From positions 1 through 52,636 of the forward strand of contig CACYHU010000005.1 in NCBI GenBank assembly GCA_902774215.1: DNA of 52,636 nucleotides, read 5' to 3'. How positions within the stretch are numbered: position 1 is the stretch's first letter; every line of letters starts with the position of its first letter. Both the position numbers and the translations under genes were made by a program. The notes under the pieces are model-generated. The model searched no databases. It was given only the letters and a program-made list of their open reading frames with translations, and was not told the DNA's origin. The DNA is from an uncultured Chloroflexota bacterium (lineage in GTDB: Bacteria; Chloroflexota; Anaerolineae; Anaerolineales; Anaerolineaceae). Of this stretch, positions 37,309 through 51,613 are shown one piece after another.

Positions 37309-37404
37309 TTATTCTTGGAAATCTTCTAAAGATGCCACGATTTCGTTGAATGAACAATCAGATGACGCTTTTTCAATTCTATTTTTATTTACATTTTTGT
37401 CCAT
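37309..37404 (-). CDS. Small ORF (31 residues) overlapping the end of the acidic protein gene
   Basis: ATG at 37404, inside the last codons of the 147-residue gene, to TAA at 37309. The peptide begins MDKNVNKNRIEKASSD and ends ASLEDFQE. No independent ribosome site is evident, so it could be made by coupling. It may be a real small protein or a fragment. Confidence 0.3.
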   Translation of the reverse strand: MDKNVNKNRIEKASSDCSFNEIVASLEDFQE

Positions 37405-37828
37405 CTAAGTAATCATTATATGGCTGTAATTGTGCGGGATCCCATCCATCCCAAAGAGCAAGATCTGCAATTAATCTCCGCTGCCGCAAGAATTCTGCCG
37501 GATCAGAACTGTGAATTCGTGCCATTTCATCAGGTTCTAAAATAATCTTTTTTACACTTGGTGCTGGTTTTTCAACAGCATACCTGACCATATCAGCGAT
37601 ACCGTATTCATCATCTTCATCTTCCAATAATTCCCATGCATAATCGGAATCATAATAGAAATGTTTATAAAAATTAATTGCTTCTTCAGACCAATCACCA
37701 GAAGAATCTTCAAAGCCATTTTCAGTTGTTTCCCGATAATAAAAATCGCCAGTATCTGAATCTTCTAATTCAAAGAAGGGAATTCTTCCGATTTGTTCAT
37801 ATAAAGAAGCAAATTGATCATCATCCAA
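37385..37828 (-). CDS. Acidic protein of the helicase operon
   Basis: 147 residues starting at TTG 37828 with GGAG eight bases upstream; there is no in-frame ATG near the start. Very acidic (GFEDSSGDWSEE, LLEDEDDEYG), with aromatic residues spread through the first half and a basic QRRLIADLALWDGWDP segment near the end. No recognised domain. It starts three bases after the helicase stop codon, so it belongs to the same transcript. A DNA mimic or accessory protein is conceivable but not shown. Confidence 0.72.
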   Translation of the reverse strand: MDDDQFASLYEQIGRIPFFELEDSDTGDFYYRETTENGFEDSSGDWSEEAINFYKHFYYDSDYAWELLEDEDDEYGIADMVRYAVEKPAPSVKKIILEPDEMARIHSSDPAEFLRQRRLIADLALWDGWDPAQLQPYNDYLDGQKCK

Positions 37829-37831
37829 CTT

Positions 37832-40800
37832 CTACACTCCATTGAATAATTCTGCAAATACCGATGGTATTATTTCACTGATAGATAAACATTTCCATCC
37901 CTGTATATCTATTTTGTTATCGTCATCATTGAACACCATTATTTTTTTGCTATTCCAGATAAACAGGCATTCAACTTTAATATTTTTTGATTGCACTGTT
38001 ATCCTACTGTAAGATTCCGAAGGTAAAGGAACACCAATAATATCCATTTCAGCGAATGTTTCTTTATATTCCTCAGGAATCATGTATGATAATTCATTCC
38101 AATTCTGGTAATCACTGCAGCTGTATCCGTTGGATATTACTACCTGGTCTTCAGAAATTTCATCATTTGTTTTTACTAAATTTTCTTCAAACTGGTCGTC
38201 CGGAATTGCTGTTGCTGGACCATAAAAATGTTCGAGGAATGAATAGGCTTCTATACGGTTCAGTTTGTCATGTATAGCCTGATTGTAATAGTTTCTCAGA
38301 CAGTTATAGCATGAAGGATCACAGTTGCATCCTTTCGTAATATCTATTGCTTTCCCGATGACCTTTTGGAAGACATTACAATCATCAGTAACCAATCGGC
38401 GTACGTGCCCAGCACCCCCGGCGACAGCGTCGTACAAAATGATTTCATATATCATTCCGTACCCGTATCTTACTTTGTGAAGGCACCCTTTGATATCTGA
38501 CCTTTCAATATCGAGAACACTGGATGCAGCCTCAAGTAACGCATACATTACTGAAAGCATTGTTGACTGACTTTTTGCCCTGACTGTACCAAAAGTGATT
38601 CTTACAACATCAGTCTTGAACGAATGACACAATTCTTTGCGATAAAGTTTCCCGTTGCAATCTGATCCCCATGGAGCTTTGTGTTTTTTCTCATAGCTTA
38701 GTGCGAAAGAATTGAAATCCTTTTCTTCCTGTCCGGATACTGAGCTAATAGAATAACCGCAGCGGTCACATACATAGAAATGATCGTTGCAGATGACCAT
38801 CAAGGAGTCATTTGCTGATGTTTCCATTTTCAGTTTCTCATCATCAAATATCCTGAAGGTTTTCTTATTCATGACCTTTCTCATAGGGTCACCGATATAA
38901 TAATCCTCGCTCTTAAAAGAACGCTCCGGTTTTCTCAGCGGGACATCTTTGGGTTTCGACTCTGCTATAAACCCTTTTCTTGGTTCGATAGCCTTTTTCC
39001 ATTTTGCCCGTTCGATTTTTTCACCGCACGAAATACATGTTTCACCTTCACTTGATGGCTCGATAATTCTCTGATTCCAAGTCATACAAGATGGATTTGA
39101 ACATTGGGCAATATAGACATCTTTCCAATCCTGTCCTGTTGCCTGCGGCAGCTTTCTGATGTAACGGCTTGTATAAAGTTTTCCGTCTGCAACAACCTGA
39201 GAATCAGGGGCATATTCAGCAATTGCGATTTGGAGATCGCGAACCATTTGAAGTTTCTTTTCCTGGTTTGCAGTCATCCCCTGGTATAACTCAACAGTAT
39301 CAACAGGAAAACCATATTTAGGCAGAACATTGTTTCGGACAAGAAATTCAATTAACTCATTGTAGCCCCTTTTATCCTCTTCACTCCGTCGAAAATCCTG
39401 AAGCTGACGCTGACATGAAGCAGCGCCTTGAATATCATTTTTTCGTTTTCGTTTGTTAAATTCTTTTATATACCAAGAAACAGTTTCTCTGAATTCTGAA
39501 ACAGCAACGGCCAAAGCACCGTCAGATCCTATCAGTTTTTCTATCCAGCCCCAATCATATAGTCCCATTGCTGAATGCATCTCGGATGGAATCGAATTCA
39601 GGAGGATATTTTTCAGATCTTCCGGCTTTGCCTGAAGATAAGCCACTAACCTTTCATAACCATCCTGGTTCAGTAGGACATCAGCGTCATTGCCATTGTA
39701 TACGTCCGGATTGCTTGCCAGAAAATGGCTTATCGCAACAGCAAAAATATGCCGCAGGATTATTTTCTCATTTGTTATTGAGAAAAGTGGGACGCCGATC
39801 TTCCCTGAGATCATCCTTTCAGGATGCTCAAAGAAAGTAAAATCGTGTGAGCTCAGTTTTGAATAAGTAAGTGAATACGCAGTTGAGTGCAAACCTCGAC
39901 CGGCGCGACCGGCACGTTGGACATAATTCGCTGGTGACGGCGGCATGTTCCGCAAATAAACGGTTTCCAGGTCCCCTACGTCCACACCCATTTCGAAAGT
40001 AGTAGAACAACTAAGGGCATTAATCGATTTATTTACAAACATTTCCTGATATCTTTGTTGTTCTGCACGTCCTAATTGCGCTGTATGCTCCTTGATATGC
40101 AAAGGTGTCATTAATTTCTCAGAATACAATCTTGCAAAATGGTTCCCGTTTATCAGTGAATCATGTGTCACGGGTTTCAGCTGCCCATCGCATTTTAAGG
40201 CTGTACATGTATTTTTACAATTTAACATTGTGGTTTTGCCGCACTTTTTACAGACATAGATTGGTCTATCTTCATTCCCGGCTACAACAGTAAATTTATC
40301 TGTAGAAATGTAATATTCACCGTATTCATCAATGGAAAGCCCGTATTTTCCACCTGAAAGAACTGCATCCCAATACATAGACAAAAGATCTTTGGCCTGT
40401 TCTTCTGTCAGATTCATCATTTTCATCAAACGGCTAATTCTTCCGTTTTTAAAAGCTTTTCCGTTTTCCTTTACGCGAGGGATCCAACTATTTAAATAAT
40501 TCTTCTTTCGGTCAGATTCCGATTCTTTGCATTTCTTGAATCTCCGGGGATGAGATGAATAATAAATGTACTCGCGTTCATCATTTGAGAGAGAAATATT
40601 TTCCCCTTCAACAGCTCCGTTATATACAATGTCCATTACAAGCAGATTAAATAAAGCCTTTACATCAGCTATTTCCTGATGATATAAATCGGCAACTCCG
40701 CTCATCAGCTCATCCGTGTTGCCCTTATAAACAAAATCCAGGATACCCAGTGATACCAGGCTCGTCGATCTCCTGGCATTTACCATTTCGTTCAGAACAG

Positions 40801-43036
40801 CCTTCCAAGCCTCCCGTCTGCTAATGACAGTAAGGTTTTCGTTTCCTTCATCACCCGGCTGGGCAAAACTTCGGTTTGCGTCAAAATATGAAGTCAATTC
40901 CTGAACCAAGGTGGAAATTTCCCATGGATGTCTGCTGATGTTCTCTTCATTGGCTTTAATCACATGGTAAATTCCTCTGCGTCTTAGAAATTCCTCATAA
41001 AAGGATGTCATGTAGCATGCATAAAATGCCGCTTCGCTTCTGCTGTCTGAAAATGTCAGAAACTGCCTTTTCTTTCTGACAATTTCCACACTCTGTTTTG
41101 GTAAAGATGATTGTGAAAAAATATTAAAGGCGGGTTTTTCTTCGACTTTTTGTATTTCAAGTTTTTCTTCAGTCTCGGGCAGCTGTTCATACAGTTCGGT
41201 GCCCAATACAGCAGTGGCAACATCATACCCAAGATAAAAAAGCTTCATTCTTCCCAGACTGCAGCACGGACATTTTATGTCATTTCGATTTTTACTATGT
41301 TCCGCTTTCCTGATACTGACAAGATTTTCACTTCCATGGCCGCACCGGAATGCATTTCTTTGGCTTTCATGATGAATTTCTCCGCACTTGGCGCATACCA
41401 CATAATCATCGCGGCCGATTTCATCAAAAGATTCTTCCTCATCTTCATCCTCTTCTTCGATGTACGAATCTTCATCCTGATTTCTCAGAAGATAAACTTC
41501 AATTGACTCATCGAAGCGGTTTCCGGCGGGAACAAGGCAGCTGTTTACGGTTTTTCCGGCAATACCGATCCTGCCGCAGTCATCGCATACAGCGGCTTCA
41601 AATACTTTCCACGTCTCATTTCCGATATCGGCATAATTTTTCCGGTTTAGGAACATTTTTTTATCTTTATTCAGTGTAATAAATGCTCCTTCCAGCGCTC
41701 TGACAAACATATGATATCGGGCTTTGATCAGCGCTGTCTTATTCTTTTCCGCTTTGGCTGCGACATAAATCAGATTTATGAGATCGATATCCTGCAGATC
41801 CATGCATTTCCGCATCTCCGATGCAATTTCATGCACAGTCATAGGACCGGCTGCACACTTTCGTAAAATCTTATATACGGAAGATGAAATACACAGATCG
41901 TATAAGATTTCCGATTCCGGTTTTGTTTTGTCAGCTTCTATCAAATACTTATTCAGTATGGAATCCATCGGACTTTCAGGATGGGCTAATTCCTCAAATA
42001 ATTTCACCGGCAGGTCAATTGTGTGTTCCGGAAGATCAGGCATAACGGTTTTGGAACGAATAATGTCATCCTTCTCAAACCGGGCATCGCATAGTGTCTT
42101 CGCGAATGATGTAATATCTTCATCAGCGTCTTTTCCGCCAAGCGTGGCGCTCGTAAGAATGTGCTGAACTTTTCCAGGATTACTGATCCTTGCTTTCAAG
42201 CGGCGCAGAAGCAAAGATGTCTCAATTCCGGTTGCCCCTCGATAAATATGGGCTTCATCCAGGACCAAAAACCGCAGCCTGGCTCCTGAAAAAACGAGAT
42301 CATCATTCGGGCGGAGCATCATATATTCAAGTATTGCATAATTCGTAACAAGGATATGCGGCGGATGTGTCTGCATCGAGTTCCGTGAAATAACCTCATT
42401 TTTCAAGGGCTTCGAAGGTCTTCCATCACTATCTTTGAATACTCTCCCGTATTCAGATATGCCTCTCTGGTCCTCCTGCTGCGTACTGCTGTTATATACG
42501 CCAAAGGTGATATCCGGATATCCTTTCAATATCGAGCGCAGCCGCTTCATCTGATCATTTGCCAATGCGTTCATTGGGTAAATCAATATAGCCCGGACAC
42601 CGTCGTTTAACGTTCCTGATTCTTTTTCCCTAAGCAAATGGTTGATGATCGGAAGGATAAAACATTCCGTTTTCCCCGAGCCGGTGCCCGTGGTAACGAT
42701 GATGTTTTTGCCTTTATTTGTTTTCCGGATCGCTTTTTCCTGATGCTTGTACAATCCTCTTTTTAGTTTGATTTCTTTCTTGTCTTCAGGAACATCAGGC
42801 TCAAGTTCACTGAATAATTTGGATAATTCTCCTTCTTCAATCAAGGAATCGATACTGTTCCCGGATTCGAAAGAATCGCTGATATCAAGATACGGGCCTT
42901 TCGAAATGGTATTTACCGATCCGAGCAGTTCCGTAAATTGGTTGGAATAATTCTGGTCAGCAATGTGGAATATTGTTGAAATATAGCTCACAAATTCATC
43001 GCGGATGCTGTCTGAAGCTTTAATTGGATCGAACAT
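37832..43036 (-). CDS. Large DEAD/DEAH helicase with DUF1998-type C-terminus (DruE/MrfA-like)
   Basis: 1734 residues. RecA1: YKHQEKAI, Walker A TGTGSGKT (116-123), DEAH (260-263), SAT (296-298). RecA2 ends with TTFEMGVDVGD and motif VI QRAGRAGR (about 1045). Several zinc knuckles lie between and after them (CAKCGEIHHES...CGHG, CPCC, CKKCGKT...CTALKC, CSNPSC...CISC, CDRCGYS). The C-terminus has the DUF1998/MZB block CNCDPSCYNCLRNYYNQ. This is the layout of DruE of Druantia defence systems and, in shorter form, of MrfA. AAAGAGG precedes the ATG. It lies four bases after the 1458-residue gene. ATP-driven action on DNA is expected; anti-phage function is inferred. Confidence 0.9.
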   Translation of the reverse strand: MFDPIKASDSIRDEFVSYISTIFHIADQNYSNQFTELLGSVNTISKGPYLDISDSFESGNSIDSLIEEGELSKLFSELEPDVPEDKKEIKLKRGLYKHQEKAIRKTNKGKNIIVTTGTGSGKTECFILPIINHLLREKESGTLNDGVRAILIYPMNALANDQMKRLRSILKGYPDITFGVYNSSTQQEDQRGISEYGRVFKDSDGRPSKPLKNEVISRNSMQTHPPHILVTNYAILEYMMLRPNDDLVFSGARLRFLVLDEAHIYRGATGIETSLLLRRLKARISNPGKVQHILTSATLGGKDADEDITSFAKTLCDARFEKDDIIRSKTVMPDLPEHTIDLPVKLFEELAHPESPMDSILNKYLIEADKTKPESEILYDLCISSSVYKILRKCAAGPMTVHEIASEMRKCMDLQDIDLINLIYVAAKAEKNKTALIKARYHMFVRALEGAFITLNKDKKMFLNRKNYADIGNETWKVFEAAVCDDCGRIGIAGKTVNSCLVPAGNRFDESIEVYLLRNQDEDSYIEEEDEDEEESFDEIGRDDYVVCAKCGEIHHESQRNAFRCGHGSENLVSIRKAEHSKNRNDIKCPCCSLGRMKLFYLGYDVATAVLGTELYEQLPETEEKLEIQKVEEKPAFNIFSQSSLPKQSVEIVRKKRQFLTFSDSRSEAAFYACYMTSFYEEFLRRRGIYHVIKANEENISRHPWEISTLVQELTSYFDANRSFAQPGDEGNENLTVISRREAWKAVLNEMVNARRSTSLVSLGILDFVYKGNTDELMSGVADLYHQEIADVKALFNLLVMDIVYNGAVEGENISLSNDEREYIYYSSHPRRFKKCKESESDRKKNYLNSWIPRVKENGKAFKNGRISRLMKMMNLTEEQAKDLLSMYWDAVLSGGKYGLSIDEYGEYYISTDKFTVVAGNEDRPIYVCKKCGKTTMLNCKNTCTALKCDGQLKPVTHDSLINGNHFARLYSEKLMTPLHIKEHTAQLGRAEQQRYQEMFVNKSINALSCSTTFEMGVDVGDLETVYLRNMPPSPANYVQRAGRAGRGLHSTAYSLTYSKLSSHDFTFFEHPERMISGKIGVPLFSITNEKIILRHIFAVAISHFLASNPDVYNGNDADVLLNQDGYERLVAYLQAKPEDLKNILLNSIPSEMHSAMGLYDWGWIEKLIGSDGALAVAVSEFRETVSWYIKEFNKRKRKNDIQGAASCQRQLQDFRRSEEDKRGYNELIEFLVRNNVLPKYGFPVDTVELYQGMTANQEKKLQMVRDLQIAIAEYAPDSQVVADGKLYTSRYIRKLPQATGQDWKDVYIAQCSNPSCMTWNQRIIEPSSEGETCISCGEKIERAKWKKAIEPRKGFIAESKPKDVPLRKPERSFKSEDYYIGDPMRKVMNKKTFRIFDDEKLKMETSANDSLMVICNDHFYVCDRCGYSISSVSGQEEKDFNSFALSYEKKHKAPWGSDCNGKLYRKELCHSFKTDVVRITFGTVRAKSQSTMLSVMYALLEAASSVLDIERSDIKGCLHKVRYGYGMIYEIILYDAVAGGAGHVRRLVTDDCNVFQKVIGKAIDITKGCNCDPSCYNCLRNYYNQAIHDKLNRIEAYSFLEHFYGPATAIPDDQFEENLVKTNDEISEDQVVISNGYSCSDYQNWNELSYMIPEEYKETFAEMDIIGVPLPSESYSRITVQSKNIKVECLFIWNSKKIMVFNDDDNKIDIQGWKCLSISEIIPSVFAELFNGV

Positions 43037-43040
43037 ATGA

Positions 43041-46000
43041 TTACCTCTTTATTGAGAATATGTATAAGTCTGAATAATAATACATGTCCTGGTAAGCCAA
43101 GGTTGGTTCCCTGTCGGTGATTTGATAAACGTATCGGCGAATATCTCTATCTAGTATCCTGCAAAAATAGAAACCTTCCCCATCTTCATTTACTATGATA
43201 AGTGTATTTTCGTTCAGCAAGTTGATCGTTACCGGGTTTATTTTCCATAACTTATTTCCATGTTTATCGGTTATGTAATCGTATGAATATTCCCGTCTTC
43301 TACCGTCTTCTAGTTCATAATACATGATACCTGTATAAACTGGGCACTCTCTCTTTTCGCTTGCGATGTACTCTACCCCAACAAACTTTATATTGTCGAT
43401 GAAGCTCTTTCTAACATCTATGCTCCTATATGGAGATTTTTCCTCACATGTTATTGAATCGATCTGAATCGTCTTATCCAAAAACCTCAGCTCGTTTACA
43501 TCACCTACAGGGAATTCCCCGGATATTATTTCCTGTTTTTGTACAGAGAAGATATTACTTGATACTTTACAGACCTTATATTTGTAAATACCCGTTGGGA
43601 GGGAAAGACCTTCATCGATTGTTTCCGTTTCTTTTGTGATCGAATATTCTTTCTCGTATTCAGTACCCTCACACACAGTAAGGAAAAATCGGGCGTCATT
43701 ATCTCCAATAAAACCATGACCCTGGTCCCAGCTAAGCTTTCCGTCCGATAAAGACAGCACCGGCGTTTCGGCAAACTGTTCTTTAACCGCAATCCGTCCT
43801 ATCAGATACTCCCTGGTTATTCCATTTGTTGGAGTCAGTTCAGCATAGACATTCAATATGTCAGTGCTGTCATCGTTACTGTACGCATATAGTGCATTTC
43901 CCAACCCAAACACATTCTTCTTTTCGGTACTGATATTATTTGTATTCAGTAAAAGCGTTATGTTTACATTTTCAGGTACTTTTGCATATAAGAAACACTC
44001 TTGAGGAATATTTTTGATCCACTTAAGGTCATTTCCATTCCATTCGTTATTATTGCTGTCTGTAATTTTCACAAAAGGTACCGGTATCTCTATTTTCCCG
44101 TCCAGGTAATCAATACTTATTGCGGTTTCCCCGGGCATTACTTGAATGGTTTGTTCGTTCTGCCCGGTTCTGAGTTTCAATACTGCATTATCGTAATCCG
44201 CAGCAGAGAATAGGAAAGGCTTATTGAATGAATATCTGAATTCCGGAATCCGGATAAAAAAGCCTTGATATACAGGATAGCGGTTTTCAAAGTCCACTAA
44301 TTGAATGGTGACTTTGTTTGTATTAATACTTGCGAAATTGATTTCATATACTCTTCGCCCTTCAACTTCCTTATACGGATAAGCTGAAATATCAAACGGC
44401 TTATTATTAATTACAAGCGGGAATTTTTTATCATTCCCGGTATTCGGGAAAATAACCTGAATAATTTCATATCCGCTGACAATCTGATATGTAATCCCAT
44501 TCTCGGTGTATACGGACGCATAGTTGGTCTTTACGTTCACTATTGGTTTTGTTTCACTGTGGGAACTGTCGAGACAAATGACATTATTATTAAGAAATAC
44601 TGCAAAATTCTCTTGAAGATTTACAAAATCTCCCCGTAATAATGATGTTTCTGTGATTGGTGAAATCTCGGCGTTTATCACAATAAATTCATTTTTACCT
44701 GAATAAAAAAATGAATAACCGCCAAGTACGCAGCTTCCTGCTGCTATTTCCGTATTATTTTTGAAAACGATCACATCTCTGAACAATGTTTTGCCGGAAT
44801 TATATAATTCTTTGGAATCGCATTTGATGATAATTTGAGGAGCGATCAAATCCGTCCCTGAAAGGTGAAAATAATCTTCAAGATCTATAGTAAATCCGGA
44901 CATCGTTTTTCCAAGTTCGTTCCCATAGAAGTTCAAATTCTTTTGTTTCACGATGTGCCCGTCATAATAAATATTCATCGTTAACTTGTCAAATTCATTT
45001 TCTGCAAGGCGAATATCCGGAAAGACGATTTGGACTTGATTTTCATTATGCAGATAATAATACGGTTTGATCCGTGTATAGTCCACTGCAACAGTGCGCT
45101 GGTTATCAGTTGCATCCCTTTTTCTGGAAGTTACAATTCCTTGGAGTTTATTTTTCATCCATTCATCGCAAATTTGTTCTTCATAATTTATAGCAGGCTG
45201 TGACGTATGGTTGATTAGTTCATCTATCCTTTTCACCATTCGCATTGCTATTTGTGAAGCGTAATGCGGACGATAGAGAATAAGTTTTATGATACCTTCC
45301 CGAAAATGATAATATGTCGCGTTGATTCCAATTTGCTCGTCAGAACCGTCATCCACATCCTGGATTTTATTTCTCAGAGCTTCGATCATACGGAAAAACA
45401 TAGGATCATTTTCAATATATGTCCAATTCAAATTGTATTTATAAAAATCGAATAGAAAATCGCAGAAATACTGCCATGACCGTCTTGTCGAAAAGGCATG
45501 AATAACAATTGTTGACTTGTACAGATTTTCCCCGCCCTTGACTAAGAACCATCTCCGGTTAGACATTAAGGCGTTTTGCAAACAACCGCACAAAAGATTT
45601 CTTAACTTATACTGGCTGTCGCCATATCCGAATTTTGTCGTCATAAAACGCCAGAAACCCGTTTCGTCAATACTGTCCCATTCCTTAGCGTGGGAAATCA
45701 TGGCAAGTGATAGGGTCATGTCATCATGAAGTTTTGTTCTTTCATTCGGGTCACTCAAGAGTTTGTTTATGTATCTGTTGCTGTCCTGGTAAATTTTACT
45801 CAGTTCGTCTTTTGGAATAATCGCATTGCCTAACAGTGGGTTTTCAGCAAAGATTTTTTCTATAAAGTCCATCGATTTCAGGCTTAATTGAACAATCATA
45901 TCGCTTTCAGGAGAATTTTCCAATGATACAGTCGGATCATCAGGATTGTTTGAATTAAATCCATAAAAAGCTATTAAGTCCTCGGCAGAGAAATTATTTC

Positions 46001-47417
46001 TGGTAATAAACGTGCGTAACCATATGCTGTCAGGTGTAGTCGGGATAAAAGTTATTCCATCGACTGTATGGTCTTCTAAATAAGAAACTATTTTTTCATC
46101 AGTAATTGAGGTGTTTTTCCGGCAATATGGAATACCATAAAGAAACCTGGAATATTCATCTGCGTTCATTTTCCGGGATTGGGCAAGCCTTCGAAATACA
46201 GAAGTATCGTCTGGTAAAAAAGACTGTTCCTTTAGAATAGTGTATACCTGTCCCTGAATCGGAAATGCATTAATTTCCTCTTCTGTATACTTTTCAAGCC
46301 CAGATTCCAGAATCTGAATTTGTATGTCCTGCGGAAGATCCTGTAGGAAAAAACATTTAATGGATTTATCCGAGACCAGCAGGATCGCGGCATCGTCATT
46401 CTTATTGTTCAGAAGATAACATTCTGTATTTTCATATTTTGAATAGAATAATTTATTGGAAACCATATCTTTGATCAAAGTTGATTCATTCGGCAGTAAT
46501 TCATTGCCGCACCAGCTGCCTTTATTTTTACTTCTTAACTTTTGCGACAATTTTTGCCTTGTAAACCCGTACCATTCACAAACCCAATTCGGCTGCAGGT
46601 TGAAATCGTCTTTGAGTTTTTGATATGTTACTTTATCAAATTTTTTGTTTCCGGATTTTTTCTGAACTCCAACTGGATCCGGATCAAAGAATTGATCACC
46701 AAGTTCAACAATCTGAGAAATTAGGTCACTTATTTCCTTCTTATATCTGGGGGTTAGTTTTTTAATTGAGGCTATATCATCCCAGCTGAGTGACAGAATC
46801 TTTTCTACTGTTTCAATATTATTTTCTAGCAGTGCTTCTATTGCACGGTCTGATAAATTAAGATCAGGAATAGGAGTTTGCAAGTTTTCAGTACTAATTG
46901 AGCCTTTTGATATCTGCATATTGCTGTTGTTAGTTTCATAATCATCTGAATCAAAAAATTTATCACCCAATTCAATTAATAACGAAACTTTCTCATCCAA
47001 TTCAGCTATGAAAGCTGGATCCATTGTATGCAAACTCAAATAATTGCAGCTTTTTAGCTTTAGAACGTGTTCTATTGTTTGGACATTACGTTCATGCAAA
47101 GCTTTCAAAATTGGATTTGAAAGATTTAATACTTTTAAGTTTTTTTGAAGATTTTCCGCGCTAAAAGAATCTTTTTTCGTCTGCAAATTATTGTTTATGT
47201 CATTAAATGCATTAATTGCCCCGCTACTGAAAATTGCTTCTATTTCTTCAATACTTTTACTACCTAAACCTTTAACATCATTGAGCTTGTCCATTTTTTC
47301 GATCAGAGTATAAAGGGAATTAATTCCACCACGCATCAAAGCATTGCTTGTCCTTATTTTGAAGCCTAATAAATAAATTGGCACATTTTTATATTCAGGT
47401 TTATTTTCAATCAGCAT
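43041..47417 (-). CDS. Very large protein with RpoA-CTD-like/HhH repeats (candidate defence component)
   Basis: 1458 residues, no signal peptide or TM helix. The N-terminus (about 1-250) has at least three helix-hairpin-helix modules like the RNA polymerase alpha C-terminal domain: LLGFKIRTSNALMRGGINSL...GLGSKSIEEI, NLSNPILKALHERNVQTIEHVL, and NLSDRAIEALLENNIETVEKIL. A region near 270-310 (NWVCEWYGFTRQKLSQKL) could be DNA-binding. The middle is alpha-helical; from about 780 on the protein is beta-rich. I recognise no enzyme motif. The start overlaps the preceding gene by 11 bases (AAGGAG upstream) and it precedes the helicase by four bases. It occupies the place of the large partner (DruH in type III Druantia), but homology is unproven. 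Confidence 0.85.
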   Translation of the reverse strand: MLIENKPEYKNVPIYLLGFKIRTSNALMRGGINSLYTLIEKMDKLNDVKGLGSKSIEEIEAIFSSGAINAFNDINNNLQTKKDSFSAENLQKNLKVLNLSNPILKALHERNVQTIEHVLKLKSCNYLSLHTMDPAFIAELDEKVSLLIELGDKFFDSDDYETNNSNMQISKGSISTENLQTPIPDLNLSDRAIEALLENNIETVEKILSLSWDDIASIKKLTPRYKKEISDLISQIVELGDQFFDPDPVGVQKKSGNKKFDKVTYQKLKDDFNLQPNWVCEWYGFTRQKLSQKLRSKNKGSWCGNELLPNESTLIKDMVSNKLFYSKYENTECYLLNNKNDDAAILLVSDKSIKCFFLQDLPQDIQIQILESGLEKYTEEEINAFPIQGQVYTILKEQSFLPDDTSVFRRLAQSRKMNADEYSRFLYGIPYCRKNTSITDEKIVSYLEDHTVDGITFIPTTPDSIWLRTFITRNNFSAEDLIAFYGFNSNNPDDPTVSLENSPESDMIVQLSLKSMDFIEKIFAENPLLGNAIIPKDELSKIYQDSNRYINKLLSDPNERTKLHDDMTLSLAMISHAKEWDSIDETGFWRFMTTKFGYGDSQYKLRNLLCGCLQNALMSNRRWFLVKGGENLYKSTIVIHAFSTRRSWQYFCDFLFDFYKYNLNWTYIENDPMFFRMIEALRNKIQDVDDGSDEQIGINATYYHFREGIIKLILYRPHYASQIAMRMVKRIDELINHTSQPAINYEEQICDEWMKNKLQGIVTSRKRDATDNQRTVAVDYTRIKPYYYLHNENQVQIVFPDIRLAENEFDKLTMNIYYDGHIVKQKNLNFYGNELGKTMSGFTIDLEDYFHLSGTDLIAPQIIIKCDSKELYNSGKTLFRDVIVFKNNTEIAAGSCVLGGYSFFYSGKNEFIVINAEISPITETSLLRGDFVNLQENFAVFLNNNVICLDSSHSETKPIVNVKTNYASVYTENGITYQIVSGYEIIQVIFPNTGNDKKFPLVINNKPFDISAYPYKEVEGRRVYEINFASINTNKVTIQLVDFENRYPVYQGFFIRIPEFRYSFNKPFLFSAADYDNAVLKLRTGQNEQTIQVMPGETAISIDYLDGKIEIPVPFVKITDSNNNEWNGNDLKWIKNIPQECFLYAKVPENVNITLLLNTNNISTEKKNVFGLGNALYAYSNDDSTDILNVYAELTPTNGITREYLIGRIAVKEQFAETPVLSLSDGKLSWDQGHGFIGDNDARFFLTVCEGTEYEKEYSITKETETIDEGLSLPTGIYKYKVCKVSSNIFSVQKQEIISGEFPVGDVNELRFLDKTIQIDSITCEEKSPYRSIDVRKSFIDNIKFVGVEYIASEKRECPVYTGIMYYELEDGRRREYSYDYITDKHGNKLWKINPVTINLLNENTLIIVNEDGEGFYFCRILDRDIRRYVYQITDREPTLAYQDMYYYSDLYIFSIKR

Positions 47418-48750
47418 CGATATGCTCCTTGTGATTCAGCAAGCATGCAGTGTGTTCCGGCTTTTTGCTTTCGATTGCGAAGTCAATCAAATACTCGAGT
47501 TCTTTGTCCGTGAAACGCAGTTTTACACTGTTAATAAGGATTGCGGTAGTCTCGGCTGAATTGGAGCTGATGGCGTCATGCAATAATCCGACATGCCAGA
47601 AATCCATGAATTCGTCTGGTATATCTAATATGTCGATTAATAAACGAATCATTTCTGAATCGTTTTTATCGATGTATTTTTTCAGAAGTGCATAAATATC
47701 GTGGCATTCACATTGATCCGTATTGATATGGATTTTGTGATTTACTGCATATTGGAGAATATCCCGAAGTACGGTAAACTCTTCATTGAAGAATCTATCT
47801 TGAATATATGCAGATTCCATTAACGAATTTAAGAAAGTATTACTCTGTATCAGTTCACGGAATTGCTCTTCATTTTCTGATTTTTTATCATTTAATTCTG
47901 AGAGAATGGTATTTGATTTCGGGCTTTCGTGGATATCCGTTTCTAAAGGTTTATTGTGGTTTATATAGAATTTATCTAATCTTTCGTTATACCACCACTC
48001 CGGAGCTAATTTGTCAATATCACCGGAGCAAATTGCTTCTTCAACAGAACATTCATCTGCGCACCCATAAAAATTATAAAGATTGCTTGCAGGTGCCCAT
48101 CTTTTTTTATAATCCGTCCATTTTGCTAATAAATACTTAAAATGAGGAGTCCCGGGTTCAGTATGCGAATCAGATCTGAATTCGTCGGAATCTTCTTGAC
48201 TGCACCAATCAATATAACGGATCTGACAATAATCATAACTTTTCCAGAAAATATATTCAATATCAGAAGCAGAAATTGGCTTATTAGGAACTTGTACTTC
48301 TTTAACTGCTTCCATATTCAGCAACGGCTCTTCTAATATATCTGAAATTATATTCTTACACCATGTAATCAAATCTTCATCTGAATCATAATCATCTTCA
48401 GAAATACATTCCAACTGATCGATTATTTCCCATACGGTGTCATCAACATCAGAATCGATGCCCCGGTTGATCTCTCGAAGTTTCTCTAAAAAATCATCAA
48501 AAGTCATTTTTCCTTTGTAAAAAAGAAACATCGGCAAAATAATCTCTTTTTGCCACTTTGACTCAAAATTCTCAATATTGGGACCTACGCAGATAAAAAA
48601 ACAAATATCCGTTGAAGATGTAACCTCTATTTCTTCCAGATATTTGTATTCATCAGGATAATATAGAGCGCTCGTATCACAAAATATATGTACAGTCGAA
48701 CCATTTTTCAATTTAAGATCAACTGATGTAATCACTTCTGTAATTTGCAT
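47407..48750 (-). CDS. Acidic protein with ankyrin-like C-terminus in the helicase operon
   Basis: 447 residues. The N-terminal 150 (VDLKLKNGSTVHIFCD..., FFICVGPNIENFESKW) are mixed alpha/beta and unrecognised. The middle is acidic, with WTDYKKRWAPASN. The C-terminal 120 have ankyrin-like helix pairs: IYALLKKYIDKNDSEMIRLLIDIL, LLHDAISSNSAETTAILI, LEYLIDFAIESKKPEHTACLL. The last unit resembles the end of the protein encoded at 50132-51613 across the divergent promoter. AGGAG precedes the ATG. It overlaps the 1458-residue gene by 11 bases. Likely an adaptor in the defence-like operon. Confidence 0.78.
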   Translation of the reverse strand: MQITEVITSVDLKLKNGSTVHIFCDTSALYYPDEYKYLEEIEVTSSTDICFFICVGPNIENFESKWQKEIILPMFLFYKGKMTFDDFLEKLREINRGIDSDVDDTVWEIIDQLECISEDDYDSDEDLITWCKNIISDILEEPLLNMEAVKEVQVPNKPISASDIEYIFWKSYDYCQIRYIDWCSQEDSDEFRSDSHTEPGTPHFKYLLAKWTDYKKRWAPASNLYNFYGCADECSVEEAICSGDIDKLAPEWWYNERLDKFYINHNKPLETDIHESPKSNTILSELNDKKSENEEQFRELIQSNTFLNSLMESAYIQDRFFNEEFTVLRDILQYAVNHKIHINTDQCECHDIYALLKKYIDKNDSEMIRLLIDILDIPDEFMDFWHVGLLHDAISSNSAETTAILINSVKLRFTDKELEYLIDFAIESKKPEHTACLLNHKEHIDAD

Positions 48751-48994: not shown

Positions 48995-49055
48995 TTTTTG
49001 TTCTGAGCTACGTGCATTCAGCAGTAAATCTTCCTTAATTTTGCTGAGAAATGTA

Positions 49056-50135
49056 ATGAGATACACATTTTACGATAAGAAATATCACTTCAAGACCGGA
49101 TTTGATACACGGACCGGCTTTTATATGCGCACAGGAATCCTGGATGAAAACGGGAAAGATACCGGTGTGGATCCGTTTATGGCTTCCTATCCCCATTTGA
49201 TTGATGTCGGGATCATGGGACATTGTATCCATGGAAAAACAGGCTTATGCATAAAAGCCGGTGTGGAGTGCTATCAAAGCGGTCTTACCATCAATAAACC
49301 GAACATGGCCGTTGAAGATTTTGCATCCATTGCTCAGCAATGCTGGGGACATACGAATCAGTTTGCCCTGGGCGGACGGGGCGACCCAGATCAGCATGAG
49401 CATTTTGAGGAGATCCTGAAGATCTGCCGAAGAAACAGAATCGTCCCGAATTTCACGACCTCCGGGCTTGGTATGACACCGGAAATTGCCGCGATATGCA
49501 AAAAATACTGCGGTGCGGTTGCCGTGAGCTGGTATCGCAGTGACTACACCACTGCTGCCATTCAGATGTTGTTGGATGCCGGCGTGAAGACCAATATCCA
49601 TTATGTGGTCGGGAACAACACGATCAATGAAGCTGTCGAGCGTCTGAAAATCGATGGCTTCCCGGAAGGGATCAACGGGGTGATTTTCCTGCTCCACAAA
49701 CCGGCGGGGCTGGGCACCGCAATAAATATGCTACGGTATGACGATCCAAGGGTTGCCGAGTTCTTCGAACTTTTTGATATTCAACACCCATATAAAATCG
49801 GAATCGACAGCTGCAGCCTTCCCGGGACGATCGCGTTCTGTAAAACACTGAATCCGGATGCGGTTGATACTTGCGAAGGCGGTAGGTTTAGCTGCTACAT
49901 TTCAGCGGATATGAAGATGATGCCATGCAGCTTTGACCAGCCCAGTCGTTATGTCGTTTCACTTTTGGATCATACAATTCAAGAAGCCTGGGAAAGCGAA
50001 CCGTTCGACAGGTTCCGTGATCACTTGAAAGGTTCCTGTCCGAAATGTGAAAAGAGAAATCTGTGCATGGGCGGTTGTCCATTAATGCCTGAAATTGTTC
50101 TTTGTAATTCTGAATCCAAGGAGGGATTAAAATGA
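49056..50135 (+). CDS. Radical SAM/SPASM protein with unusual cysteine spacing
   Basis: 359 residues from the ATG at 49056 (a TTG at 49041 is a less likely start). A partial TIM barrel is indicated by FALGGRGDPDQHEHF, IVPNFTTSGLG and KTNIHYVVGNNT. The presumed SAM-cluster cysteines are Cys57, Cys65 and Cys72 (C-x7-C-x6-C) instead of CxxxCxxC. A SPASM domain follows with Cys273, 280, 291 and CxxCx5CxxxC (Cys328, 331, 337, 341) plus Cys350. SPASM enzymes usually modify peptides or proteins. The stop overlaps the next gene's ATG (ATGA), so that protein is the obvious partner or substrate. Confidence 0.88.
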   Translation: MRYTFYDKKYHFKTGFDTRTGFYMRTGILDENGKDTGVDPFMASYPHLIDVGIMGHCIHGKTGLCIKAGVECYQSGLTINKPNMAVEDFASIAQQCWGHTNQFALGGRGDPDQHEHFEEILKICRRNRIVPNFTTSGLGMTPEIAAICKKYCGAVAVSWYRSDYTTAAIQMLLDAGVKTNIHYVVGNNTINEAVERLKIDGFPEGINGVIFLLHKPAGLGTAINMLRYDDPRVAEFFELFDIQHPYKIGIDSCSLPGTIAFCKTLNPDAVDTCEGGRFSCYISADMKMMPCSFDQPSRYVVSLLDHTIQEAWESEPFDRFRDHLKGSCPKCEKRNLCMGGCPLMPEIVLCNSESKEGLK

Positions 50136-51613
50136 AATTTAGAACTGATTTTGTTACAAACTCGAGCAGCAGTAATTTTATGTCTGTTACGCTCAATTTA
50201 AATAATTCAACTGAAGAAGAATTTTCTGTATTTGAAGAAGGAACAGGGTGGAATAATTTTATTAAATATTCCGAAGATGAAGGTTTGACTTTCCTTGGAT
50301 ATCCAATCAAAACACTTGATGAATTATTTGCCTGTTTGTATCTCTACTACAACGGGGATGACATGTATGAAATCAATATAATCCCCATTTTGACTCCGAT
50401 TTTCCAGTTTATTGCAAGAAAAATCGATTCTGCTGCTATGATAGAAATCATCCACGACTATACTCAGGAAAACGATATTACTTTGGATTGGTATCCGTTC
50501 GATGAGTTGGAAAACTTTTCGTCTGATGATTATGATGATGAAGATCAACTGAGAGATGAAATTGAAAATACTTTTTCCTGTGGAAGTGAAGAGTTAATTG
50601 AATCTTACTCTAAGCTCTCTAAAAAAAATATTTCTCTTTCCGATATTGAATCACTCGTTTTTTACGATAATTGTAGGGATTACGGTGAATTTCTAAATCA
50701 TTTTTCAGAAGATGTATATTATGACAGCTATATAAAAAACAATTTTCCTCAAGTAGATAAAGATGATCCATTATTTGAAAAAGAAGTCACCAAATGGACC
50801 GATATTTTTTATGAGAGGATATTTGAAGTTGTTCCCGGAAAGAAAGAAATCGAATTTGACAATGACATTGATATAGAAGCCGGACTTGAATCCGGTGATT
50901 TGGACGATTGTATTGGTGATCTCGAGGGAGCTAATACACACAAATGGGTCACAATTATTCTAAATCCGAATAAAAAATCAGAGGAAATGTCTTCAACCAC
51001 AAAAAAATCCGAATACAAACTATCCGAAGAGGATACTTCCGAACATGACTACTACTTTGAAATTTTTAACTGTCTTTCTGAATTTTCATACTATCCCCCC
51101 AAATATTTAGTTGAGAAGTTGAAAGAGATTACAGAAGAAAAACATTTTCCAAAATGCTTTCATAGGTATCCGATCACAGATATTCTTGAAAATATTTCCA
51201 AATATGCTTCTGATAAAGTGCGTGATGCACTGAAGAATGTTGGTTTGGAAATGGATCCTGACGAAATTTTCAACCACATTTTTGATGAATCTTGGGATTC
51301 GTTATATACGTTTATCGAAAAAAGCATGGCAGAGAAAGGTGAATCTATCAATAGAGATGATATTTTAGGTTATTTTGAGCCATTACGCTCTGTTCTGAAC
51401 ATTCTGCCCGGCCTTGGAATCAAGCTTGATTTTGCTGATGTTTCACATTATATATATAATGACTCTATTGAAACAATATATCCGCTTTTTGAAAAAGGAG
51501 TAAAAATAGAGAAATCAGCATTTGATGAGTTATCTAAATATGCAGTTGAACACGGAAAAGAAGATTTTTCTGCATGGCTTATGGATAATAAAGACAATAT
51601 CTCTGCGAATTAA
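50132..51613 (+). CDS. Acidic protein with N-terminal FVTNSSSS motif, probable partner of the radical SAM enzyme
   Basis: 493 residues, no signal peptide or TM helix. The N-terminus is MKFRTDFVTNSSSSNF, a signature I have met at the start of otherwise unrelated hypothetical proteins of anaerobes, often next to radical SAM genes (from memory). The body is acidic (SSDDYDDEDQLRDE, GLESGDLDDCIGDLEG). The C-terminus has ankyrin-like helix pairs ending FDELSKYAVEHGKEDFSAWL, similar to the end of the protein at 47407-48750. AAGGAGG precedes the ATG, and translation is coupled to the enzyme gene. The Ser-rich N-terminus may be the modified site. Confidence 0.82.
   Translation: MKFRTDFVTNSSSSNFMSVTLNLNNSTEEEFSVFEEGTGWNNFIKYSEDEGLTFLGYPIKTLDELFACLYLYYNGDDMYEINIIPILTPIFQFIARKIDSAAMIEIIHDYTQENDITLDWYPFDELENFSSDDYDDEDQLRDEIENTFSCGSEELIESYSKLSKKNISLSDIESLVFYDNCRDYGEFLNHFSEDVYYDSYIKNNFPQVDKDDPLFEKEVTKWTDIFYERIFEVVPGKKEIEFDNDIDIEAGLESGDLDDCIGDLEGANTHKWVTIILNPNKKSEEMSSTTKKSEYKLSEEDTSEHDYYFEIFNCLSEFSYYPPKYLVEKLKEITEEKHFPKCFHRYPITDILENISKYASDKVRDALKNVGLEMDPDEIFNHIFDESWDSLYTFIEKSMAEKGESINRDDILGYFEPLRSVLNILPGLGIKLDFADVSHYIYNDSIETIYPLFEKGVKIEKSAFDELSKYAVEHGKEDFSAWLMDNKDNISAN

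Follow-up and report, generated by a model that had tools for sequence, protein, structure and literature searches.

Does an enzyme of the radical S-adenosylmethionine (SAM) superfamily mark the N-terminus of the full-size protein encoded beside it? The question is raised by two overlapping genes in a 52,636-nucleotide stretch of DNA from an uncultured bacterium of the Anaerolineaceae (Chloroflexota; contig CACYHU010000005.1), hereafter called the window. The first gene (49056..50135, plus strand) encodes a radical SAM/SPASM enzyme of 359 amino acids (aa), assigned from the list of open reading frames (ORFs), SPASM models above cut-off, relatives and fold; an alternative TTG start at 49041, in place of the ATG at 49056, would give 364 aa with the common end at 50135. 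The second gene, taken from the ORF list (50132..51613, plus strand, ATG start), encodes a protein of 493 aa that begins with the segment MKFRTDFVTNSSSSNF (50132..50179, plus strand), recognized by comparison with a profile and a pattern and called the tag below. Its likely ribosome-binding site, as read from the sequence, is AAGGAGGG (50118..50125, plus strand). The four-base gene overlap claimed in an earlier note on this DNA was borne out by the ORFs: the shared ATGA (50132-50135) holds both the stop codon TGA of the enzyme (50133-50135) and the start codon ATG of the tagged protein (50132-50134).

The data suggest that an enzyme travelling with one N-terminal tag in gut bacteria, plasmids and phages represents an undescribed protein-marking system. 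Judged from sequence comparison, the enzyme and the tag are almost certainly functionally linked, and their co-occurrence, together with the fold and family of the enzyme, makes it probable that full-size proteins are covalently modified by the enzyme at their tag.

The tag accompanies the enzyme in bacteria and viruses

Loci were fetched with a 28-row enzyme alignment (A1), and the motif was not used. The bacterial set comprised the best 80 of 253 loci in genome_contigs and the viral set the best 80 of 267 loci in viral_contigs, 79 of which were counted; the best 80 are those nearest the window's enzyme. The strict motif was present in 65/80 bacterial and 52/79 viral loci, and the reversed motif in 0/80 and 0/79. 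When GTG and TTG starts and close variants were admitted in ORFs of at least 60 aa, a tagged gene was found in 71/80 bacterial and 60/79 viral loci, lying within 500 bp of the enzyme in 65 and 49 of them, respectively. The 65 close bacterial genes were mostly downstream of the enzyme (52), with 10 upstream and 3 on the opposite strand. Five relatives were 63-67% identical to the window's enzyme, all from the same family, and three of them adjoin a tagged gene. With the window's enzyme alone as the query, no match was obtained in the viral contigs; alignment A1 did find relatives there.

Nine bacterial loci were without a tagged gene (L138, L172, L177, L178, L182, L196, L198, L199 and L204). 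The tagged ORF at L138 has only 38 codons, and the contig of L177 stops directly after the enzyme. A tag-profile search of the whole genomes behind the nine loci recovered the tag in seven at E ≤ 4e-7; the one found in the L138 genome is probably the short ORF already seen at the locus.

Retrieval was also performed from the side of the tag, using a degenerate DNA pattern anchored on ATG, which yielded at least 120 stretches in IMG/VR. The first 50 of these loci lie in 47 records, and the enzyme was detected (E ≤ 1e-15) in 36 of the 47. Among the records of at least 100 kb it was detected in 9/10, the exception being G574, the viral contig behind L038 (121,660 bases), which carries several tagged genes and no enzyme of the family at E ≤ 1e-15; G574 is either a fragment or the user of another enzyme. 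In a hand-picked set the enzyme was present in 26/29 (E ≤ 1e-6), and in 20/23 of those picked for the tag.

Among 147 genomes of the window's family, seven held both the tag and the enzyme, none the tag only, one the enzyme only and 139 neither (Fisher p 3e-11, kinship ignored). The cut-offs were E ≤ 1e-20 for the enzyme and E 1e-5 for tag profile A3, the latter set after a gap between 8.8e-6 and 0.039 had been seen; 47 further family genomes gave tag candidates only at E 0.039 to 1, which were taken for chance. The enzyme of the enzyme-only genome (G075) is a 113-aa fragment that runs into a stop codon 56 bases short of the end of its contig; conserved residues are lost, and it looks like a decayed copy. 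The tag and the enzyme were on different contigs in one genome (G103), and two tagged genes lay about 3 kb downstream of the enzyme in another (G146). The earlier note had predicted that radical SAM neighbours would be enriched for the motif, and this was the outcome in both directions, with 71/80 and 60/79 loci on the one side and 36/47 records and 7/7 family genomes on the other.

In a class-wide sample of 396 genomes, 15 enzyme matches were obtained at E ≤ 1e-15; those of the window's genome and the G075 fragment belong to this family, and the remaining 13 were partial (E 5e-16 to 6e-19) and were taken for other radical SAM proteins. Within the window's own genome, the enzyme search returned only the enzyme itself (E ≤ 1e-3), and the core pattern matched twice, the true motif occurring only at the window's gene. 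No third constant partner gene was seen: the commonest other family, a BspA-like leucine-rich repeat (LRR) protein (e.g., L166, L191 and L302), was seen beside the bacterial enzyme at 22 of up to 87 loci.

The shared element is an N-terminal peptide

The tag follows the pattern M-K-[IFV]-[RK]-x-D-F-V-[TS]-N-S-S-S-[ST]-x-[FY], and its logo reads M-K-I-[RK]-x-D-F-V-T-N-S-S-S-[ST]-S-[FY]-[IV]. The IMG/VR loci contained at least 229 tagged ORFs by the first protein pattern, a single locus holding as many as five matches to it; their median length was 139 aa and most exceeded 100 aa. Together with the 493 aa of the window's protein, these lengths uphold the earlier claim that the partner is unlike a short peptide precursor. 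Over all collected loci, at least 527 tagged proteins of at least 60 aa were obtained, of which at least 430 were unique. The tagged bodies (residue 21 onward) fell into 83 single-linkage clusters, 52 of them singletons (phmmer E < 1e-4); the figure of 83 is an upper bound, because remote homology could merge some clusters. Close to the enzyme, 15 body clusters were represented in bacterial loci, 11 in enzyme-fetched viral loci and 15 in tag-fetched viral loci. That so many body clusters lie near the enzyme, and that tag and enzyme co-occur unlinked in genome G103 and in phages GAP161 and RB43, makes it unlikely that the association reflects simple linkage within a single lineage.

The IMG/VR pattern had fixed N10 and narrowed the serine positions, and conservation was therefore counted on the 207 unique enzyme-fetched tagged proteins. 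T9, N10, S11 and S12 were invariant in 207/207, the protein pattern having permitted other letters. All six serine codons were used at S11, S12 and S13 of these proteins, so selection acts on the peptide; a DNA- or RNA-level element was ruled out, since AGY and TCN codons both occur at each of the three positions. The unanchored tag core occurred 178 times in the enzyme-fetched loci, preceded by a start codon six residues before it in 176 (140 ATG, 19 TTG and 17 GTG). A chance low-complexity match was ruled out by this placement and by the lack of the reversed motif in both locus sets. Cysteine was present in the tag only in a minority, at positions 14-15 and 17-18. The anaerobic sulfatase-type sequence C/S-x-P-x-R, the sulfatase motif, was not found in the tag.

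Few Pfam matches were obtained among 94 tagged proteins taken from the clusters (BspA-type LRR in four, BRCT in three, others in one or two each). The body of the window's protein had no relative among the 430 unique tagged proteins collected, and the 493-aa protein was without a Pfam match at E ≤ 1, its one NCBIfam match (EXLDI, 18 vs. 32 bits) falling below the cut-off; it weakly resembled the neighbouring gene at 47407-48750 (E 0.024).

The tag could instead serve as a recognition leader only, with the enzyme modifying the body or the C-terminus in the manner of classical ribosomally synthesized and post-translationally modified peptides (RiPPs). N-terminal leaders are the rule in RiPPs (PMC10858898), but a pooled alignment of the 94 proteins contained no invariant or nearly invariant column beyond the tag, and the bodies form up to 83 clusters. 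We consider a leader role unlikely, though the likeliest of the alternatives.

The enzyme is a divergent radical SAM/SPASM protein

Two SPASM models matched the window's enzyme above cut-off (PF13186, 27.8 vs. 21.5 bits; TIGR04085, 33.9 vs. 27), and the seven SPASM cysteines, C273 to C350, were present. The enzyme does not contain the canonical radical SAM motif CX3CX2C and has CX7CX6C instead, in a stretched cluster-binding loop, C57-x7-C65-x6-C72 (49224..49271, plus strand), defined by alignment A1 and by the spacings in 193 unique relatives. CX7CX6C was found in 103 of the 193 (81 from bacterial loci and 22 viral) and CX3CX2C in 75, 73 of which were viral with a truncated SPASM. The others had CX5CX3C (8, including two rows misread by the script as CX12CX9C), CX7CX8C (2), CX7CX2C (2) or CX5CX6C (1), and two were unreadable. 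In a FastTree phylogeny built from 138 thinned rows with the loop columns kept, the loop type changed 8 times, compared to a minimum of 6 and a shuffled mean of 54.9.

The SPASM region, located with alignment A1 (49812..50105, plus strand), contains C253, C273, C291, C328, C331, C337, C341 and C350, with C262 and C280 falling between the listed cysteines. C253, C273, C291 and C341 were invariant across all 28 rows of A1, and the 20 truncated phage rows stop at C341, without C328, C331, C337 and C350. In the anaerobic sulfatase-maturating enzyme anSME, the ligands are C255, C261, C276 and C330 for auxiliary cluster I (Aux I) and C317, C320, C326 and C348 for Aux II, according to PMC5682303. By order and spacing, the eight cysteines of the window's enzyme appear to correspond to these Aux I and Aux II ligands. 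Since four cysteines are missing from the truncated phage type, we infer that it has one auxiliary cluster and the window type two.

The AlphaFold model of the window's enzyme had a mean predicted local distance difference test score (pLDDT) of 78 and a predicted template modelling score of 0.84, with the stretched loop at low confidence. As regards an RRE leader-binding domain, a mark of classical RiPP systems, the model shows only three strands (residues 2-27) and no helices ahead of the barrel. The best Foldseek matches were SuiB (E 3.1e-11), anSME 4k38 (E 1.2e-10), PqqE and SkfB, further matches being AbmM, BtrN, TigE and 5why/5wgg, followed by viperin, DesII, BlsE, ChlB and EpeE. SuiB, anSME, PqqE, SkfB, TigE, 5why/5wgg, ChlB and EpeE modify peptides or proteins; AbmM and BtrN act on small molecules. 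Because the three cysteines and the fold are retained, the enzyme is treated here as a divergent radical SAM relative that presumably works like one.

Proposed mechanism and alternative explanations

The window pair would be one instance of a tag-and-maturase system, in which a dedicated radical SAM/SPASM enzyme recognizes the exposed tag MK[I/F][R/K]xDFV[T/S]NSSS(S)x[F/Y] and abstracts hydrogen from a tag residue, the likeliest site being the invariant Asn10-Ser11-Ser12 (Ser13), so that a marked full-size protein would be the product. We infer three points here: binding of the tag by the enzyme, modification of the tag rather than of something else, and the chemistry performed. In order of preference, this chemistry may be oxidation of serine (anSME-like formylglycine), a side-chain crosslink (SuiB-like) or epimerization (EpeE/YydG-like); a thioether is not the general product, since the tags have no conserved cysteine. 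The mark could stabilize or localize the protein or give it a reactive group. The earlier note had proposed a modified N-terminus on a full-size protein: the conserved N-terminus is indeed the shared element, and its modification would follow, by analogy, from the fold and family of the enzyme.

Several results weigh against this explanation. The Pfam model Radical_SAM (PF04055) scored under its gathering threshold in the window's enzyme (16.4 vs. 29.5 bits), likely because of the stretched cysteine motif. Small-molecule enzymes were among the fold matches (AbmM, BtrN, viperin, DesII and BlsE), and BtrN ranked third in the profile search with the enzyme. The genomes behind L199 and L204 were without any tag in the whole-genome tag-profile search. 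Among the 19 viral misses, 16 whole records were without a tag (E ≤ 1e-3) and three had a broken 19-codon frame; the miss records are fragments of 4-42 kb, yet many show 3-5 kb on both sides. In the tag-fetched set, 11 of the 47 tag-bearing viral records were without the enzyme, one of them 121,660 bases long. The genomes and loci are, moreover, related, and the 80 bacterial loci overlap the 147 genomes (with the same tag places), so the tests are not independent.

If the tag were a targeting or assembly signal, the enzyme might be linked to it otherwise, for example by making a small molecule for the tagged proteins. The fold matches that act on small molecules favour such a role, as do the few tagged bodies with protein-binding domains (LRR in 4 and BRCT in 3 of the 94), and the chemistry on the tag is itself putative. 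The top fold matches, however, modify peptides or proteins, the co-occurrence is nearly exclusive in the window's family, and the commonest other family reaches just 22 of up to 87 bacterial enzyme loci. On balance we regard a targeting signal as improbable, somewhat more so than a leader.

Modification of the tag is also consistent with the model of one phage tagged protein (L035, 176 aa, 49-row alignment), which had a pLDDT of 89. Residues 1-12 were modelled as coil, with residues 1-6 below a pLDDT of 50, and the first strand began at residue 13; the tag thus resembles an exposed tail attached to the core, such as an enzyme modifying it would require, as modelled in this one phage family and not in the window's protein. 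No fold match was obtained for one phage tagged protein at E ≤ 0.001. Cleavage of the tag after modification, with a short modified peptide as the product and the body as its carrier, would fit the several SPASM maturases that make RiPPs and a tag about as long as a small core peptide, but it is very improbable given that the body in the modelled family is well folded (pLDDT 89) and keeps conserved residues of its own (E160 and H176), and that the tag leads directly into the first core strand.

Comparison with known systems

A SPASM maturase with an encoded substrate is of a known kind. The founding SPASM enzyme, anSME, resembles the window's enzyme in fold (4k38) and modifies a serine or cysteine of a protein, as stated in PMC5682303. 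It differs in acting at an active-site residue of sulfatases, whereas the target proposed here is a tag at the N-terminus of proteins from many families; the window's enzyme also scored 11.8 against a cut-off of 349.45 with the corresponding NCBIfam model (TIGR03942), and its loop is CX7CX6C. The RiPP SPASM maturases (SuiB, SkfB, CteB, PqqE and EpeE) have short precursors as substrates, often encoded next door, whereas here whole proteins bear the motif at residue 1; the likeness lies in the fold matches and in the profile search, where SkfB and SuiB were matched weakly (both at E 1.2e-6), and NCBIfam equivalogs were far below cut-off in the proteins scanned here. The LPXTG/sortase and PEP-CTERM/exosortase systems similarly pair a single short motif, borne by unrelated proteins, with a single enzyme family that co-occurs with it, but LPXTG and PEP-CTERM are C-terminal sorting signals served by transpeptidase-like enzymes, unlike the N-terminal tag and the radical enzyme described here.

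No NCBIfam equivalog scored above cut-off for the window's enzyme, and among all enzymes scanned against NCBIfam and Pfam only SPASM did so. PHROG 7293 matched the phage enzymes and the window's enzyme (E 8.6e-20), and PHROG 7397 matched a phage tagged protein; both are annotated as of unknown function, and PHROG states no link between them. Three tagged proteins were unmatched by PHROG 7397 among the seven non-enzyme proteins scanned. A search for the motif strings in open-licence full texts found no description of the system, which does not show its absence from print; the string TNSSSS was found in one text, on a plant membrane protein, and was irrelevant.

We know of no such kind of tag, common to numerous unrelated full-size proteins of phages and of defence-like cassettes. 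If true, a radical enzyme that acts on one N-terminal tag, portable across dozens of unrelated proteins, would represent a novel way of modifying proteins. It would assign a common function to many phage proteins that now lack annotation, and the tag would be a candidate for labelling proteins at a specific site. The stretched cluster motif would widen the radical SAM signature, because searches that demand CX3CX2C miss the window's enzyme.

Defence-like surroundings

The earlier note had placed a divergent, defence-like operon beside the pair, in agreement with the minus-strand genes found to its left (37385-48750), which form a Druantia-like operon. It includes a DruE-type helicase (37832-43036, minus strand; PADLOC DruE of Druantia, E 1e-177), a 1458-aa protein with two stretches resembling the C-terminal domain of the RNA polymerase alpha subunit, and proteins of 147 and 447 aa. 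A scan of the neighbourhood covered a portion of the bacterial loci, with 78 proteins picked out of 198 that had 330 aa or more; DISARM, DRT, Zorya-like, Gabija-like, BREX-helicase and restriction-modification matches were obtained, each in one or two members (25 of 116 families viewed). Run without a background control, the scan suggests that the enzyme loci may lie in defence islands.

The enzyme was found on 7 of 72,556 plasmid records. A cassette in which a nucleoside triphosphatase (NTPase) and a small protein are encoded together with a tagged protein and the enzyme was present on the four plasmids examined (L333-L336), in a clostridial genome (G140, L337) and on viral contig L098; a second viral contig, L062, carries the NTPase, the small protein and the tagged protein, with the enzyme elsewhere in the same record. 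At L333 the small protein amounts to an ORF of just 80 aa, and the L335 NTPase is split between two ORFs. The SMEK domain of NCBIfam was matched by the NTPases of L333 and L334 (E 1e-24 and 1e-21), with Avs2 below cut-off. In PADLOC, the NTPases of L333, L334 and L336 matched Avs2 models (E 1e-20 to 8e-27), and their N-termini matched an Argonaute-associated nuclease model (E 1e-49 to 1e-52); the L337 NTPase is related more distantly (phmmer E 1e-40). On these sequence matches, the cassette is a candidate for an undescribed anti-phage system.

The Avs2-related cassette occurs in alphaproteobacteria, including Rhodobacter sp. CZR27, a clostridium and two viral contigs, and its link to an Avs2-like NTPase raises the question of phage sensing. 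Because this NTPase and the small protein are encoded together with tag and enzyme, the cassette may use its tagged subunit to sense the marking system of a phage or as a decoy for it. We are evenly divided on the wider proposal of a general phage and bacterial marking system, in which one enzyme would simultaneously convert the shared tag on many unrelated proteins to a novel chemical group and bacteria would reuse the tag in defence in this way.

Occurrence in phages

The enzyme family was detected in 166 to 172 of 50,697 phage records, depending on which of two queries was used, and the phages that carry it mostly infect Klebsiella, Enterobacter, Cronobacter, Citrobacter and Escherichia. 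Among the tagged families, PHROG 7397 was present in 169 phage records, a list counted apart from that of the enzyme. GAP161 and RB43, the two with a genus named in the taxonomy, are Pseudotevenvirus. GAP161 has one enzyme match, GAP161_155, and the tagged genes GAP161_106 and GAP161_111 lie 20-24 kb away (40 of 178 kb read for tags). The Escherichia coli phage RB43 likewise has an enzyme (CCK74014.1) and two unlinked tagged genes (CCK73964.1 and CCK73969.1) 20-24 kb away (36 of 180 kb read); as a laboratory phage with the enzyme and at least two tagged genes, it makes the link directly testable. Four tagged genes and one enzyme were found in the 21 kb of Vibrio phage D479 that were read.

Some viral loci had further features. 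A second, different radical SAM-like protein, with CX3CX2C near residues 12-28 and CxxCNHxC near the C-terminus, was encoded in the tag-fetched loci L024, L032, L086, L089, L094, L106 and L108. At L233, L237, L243, L266 and similar viral loci, small membrane-like proteins were encoded in the vicinity of the enzyme, as was a short protein of secreted appearance (16 loci) that may be reminiscent of CreA. On viral contig L300, a 619-aa ORF (703-2562) has a front part that, by eye, resembles a GIY-YIG homing endonuclease and is fused in frame to the enzyme.

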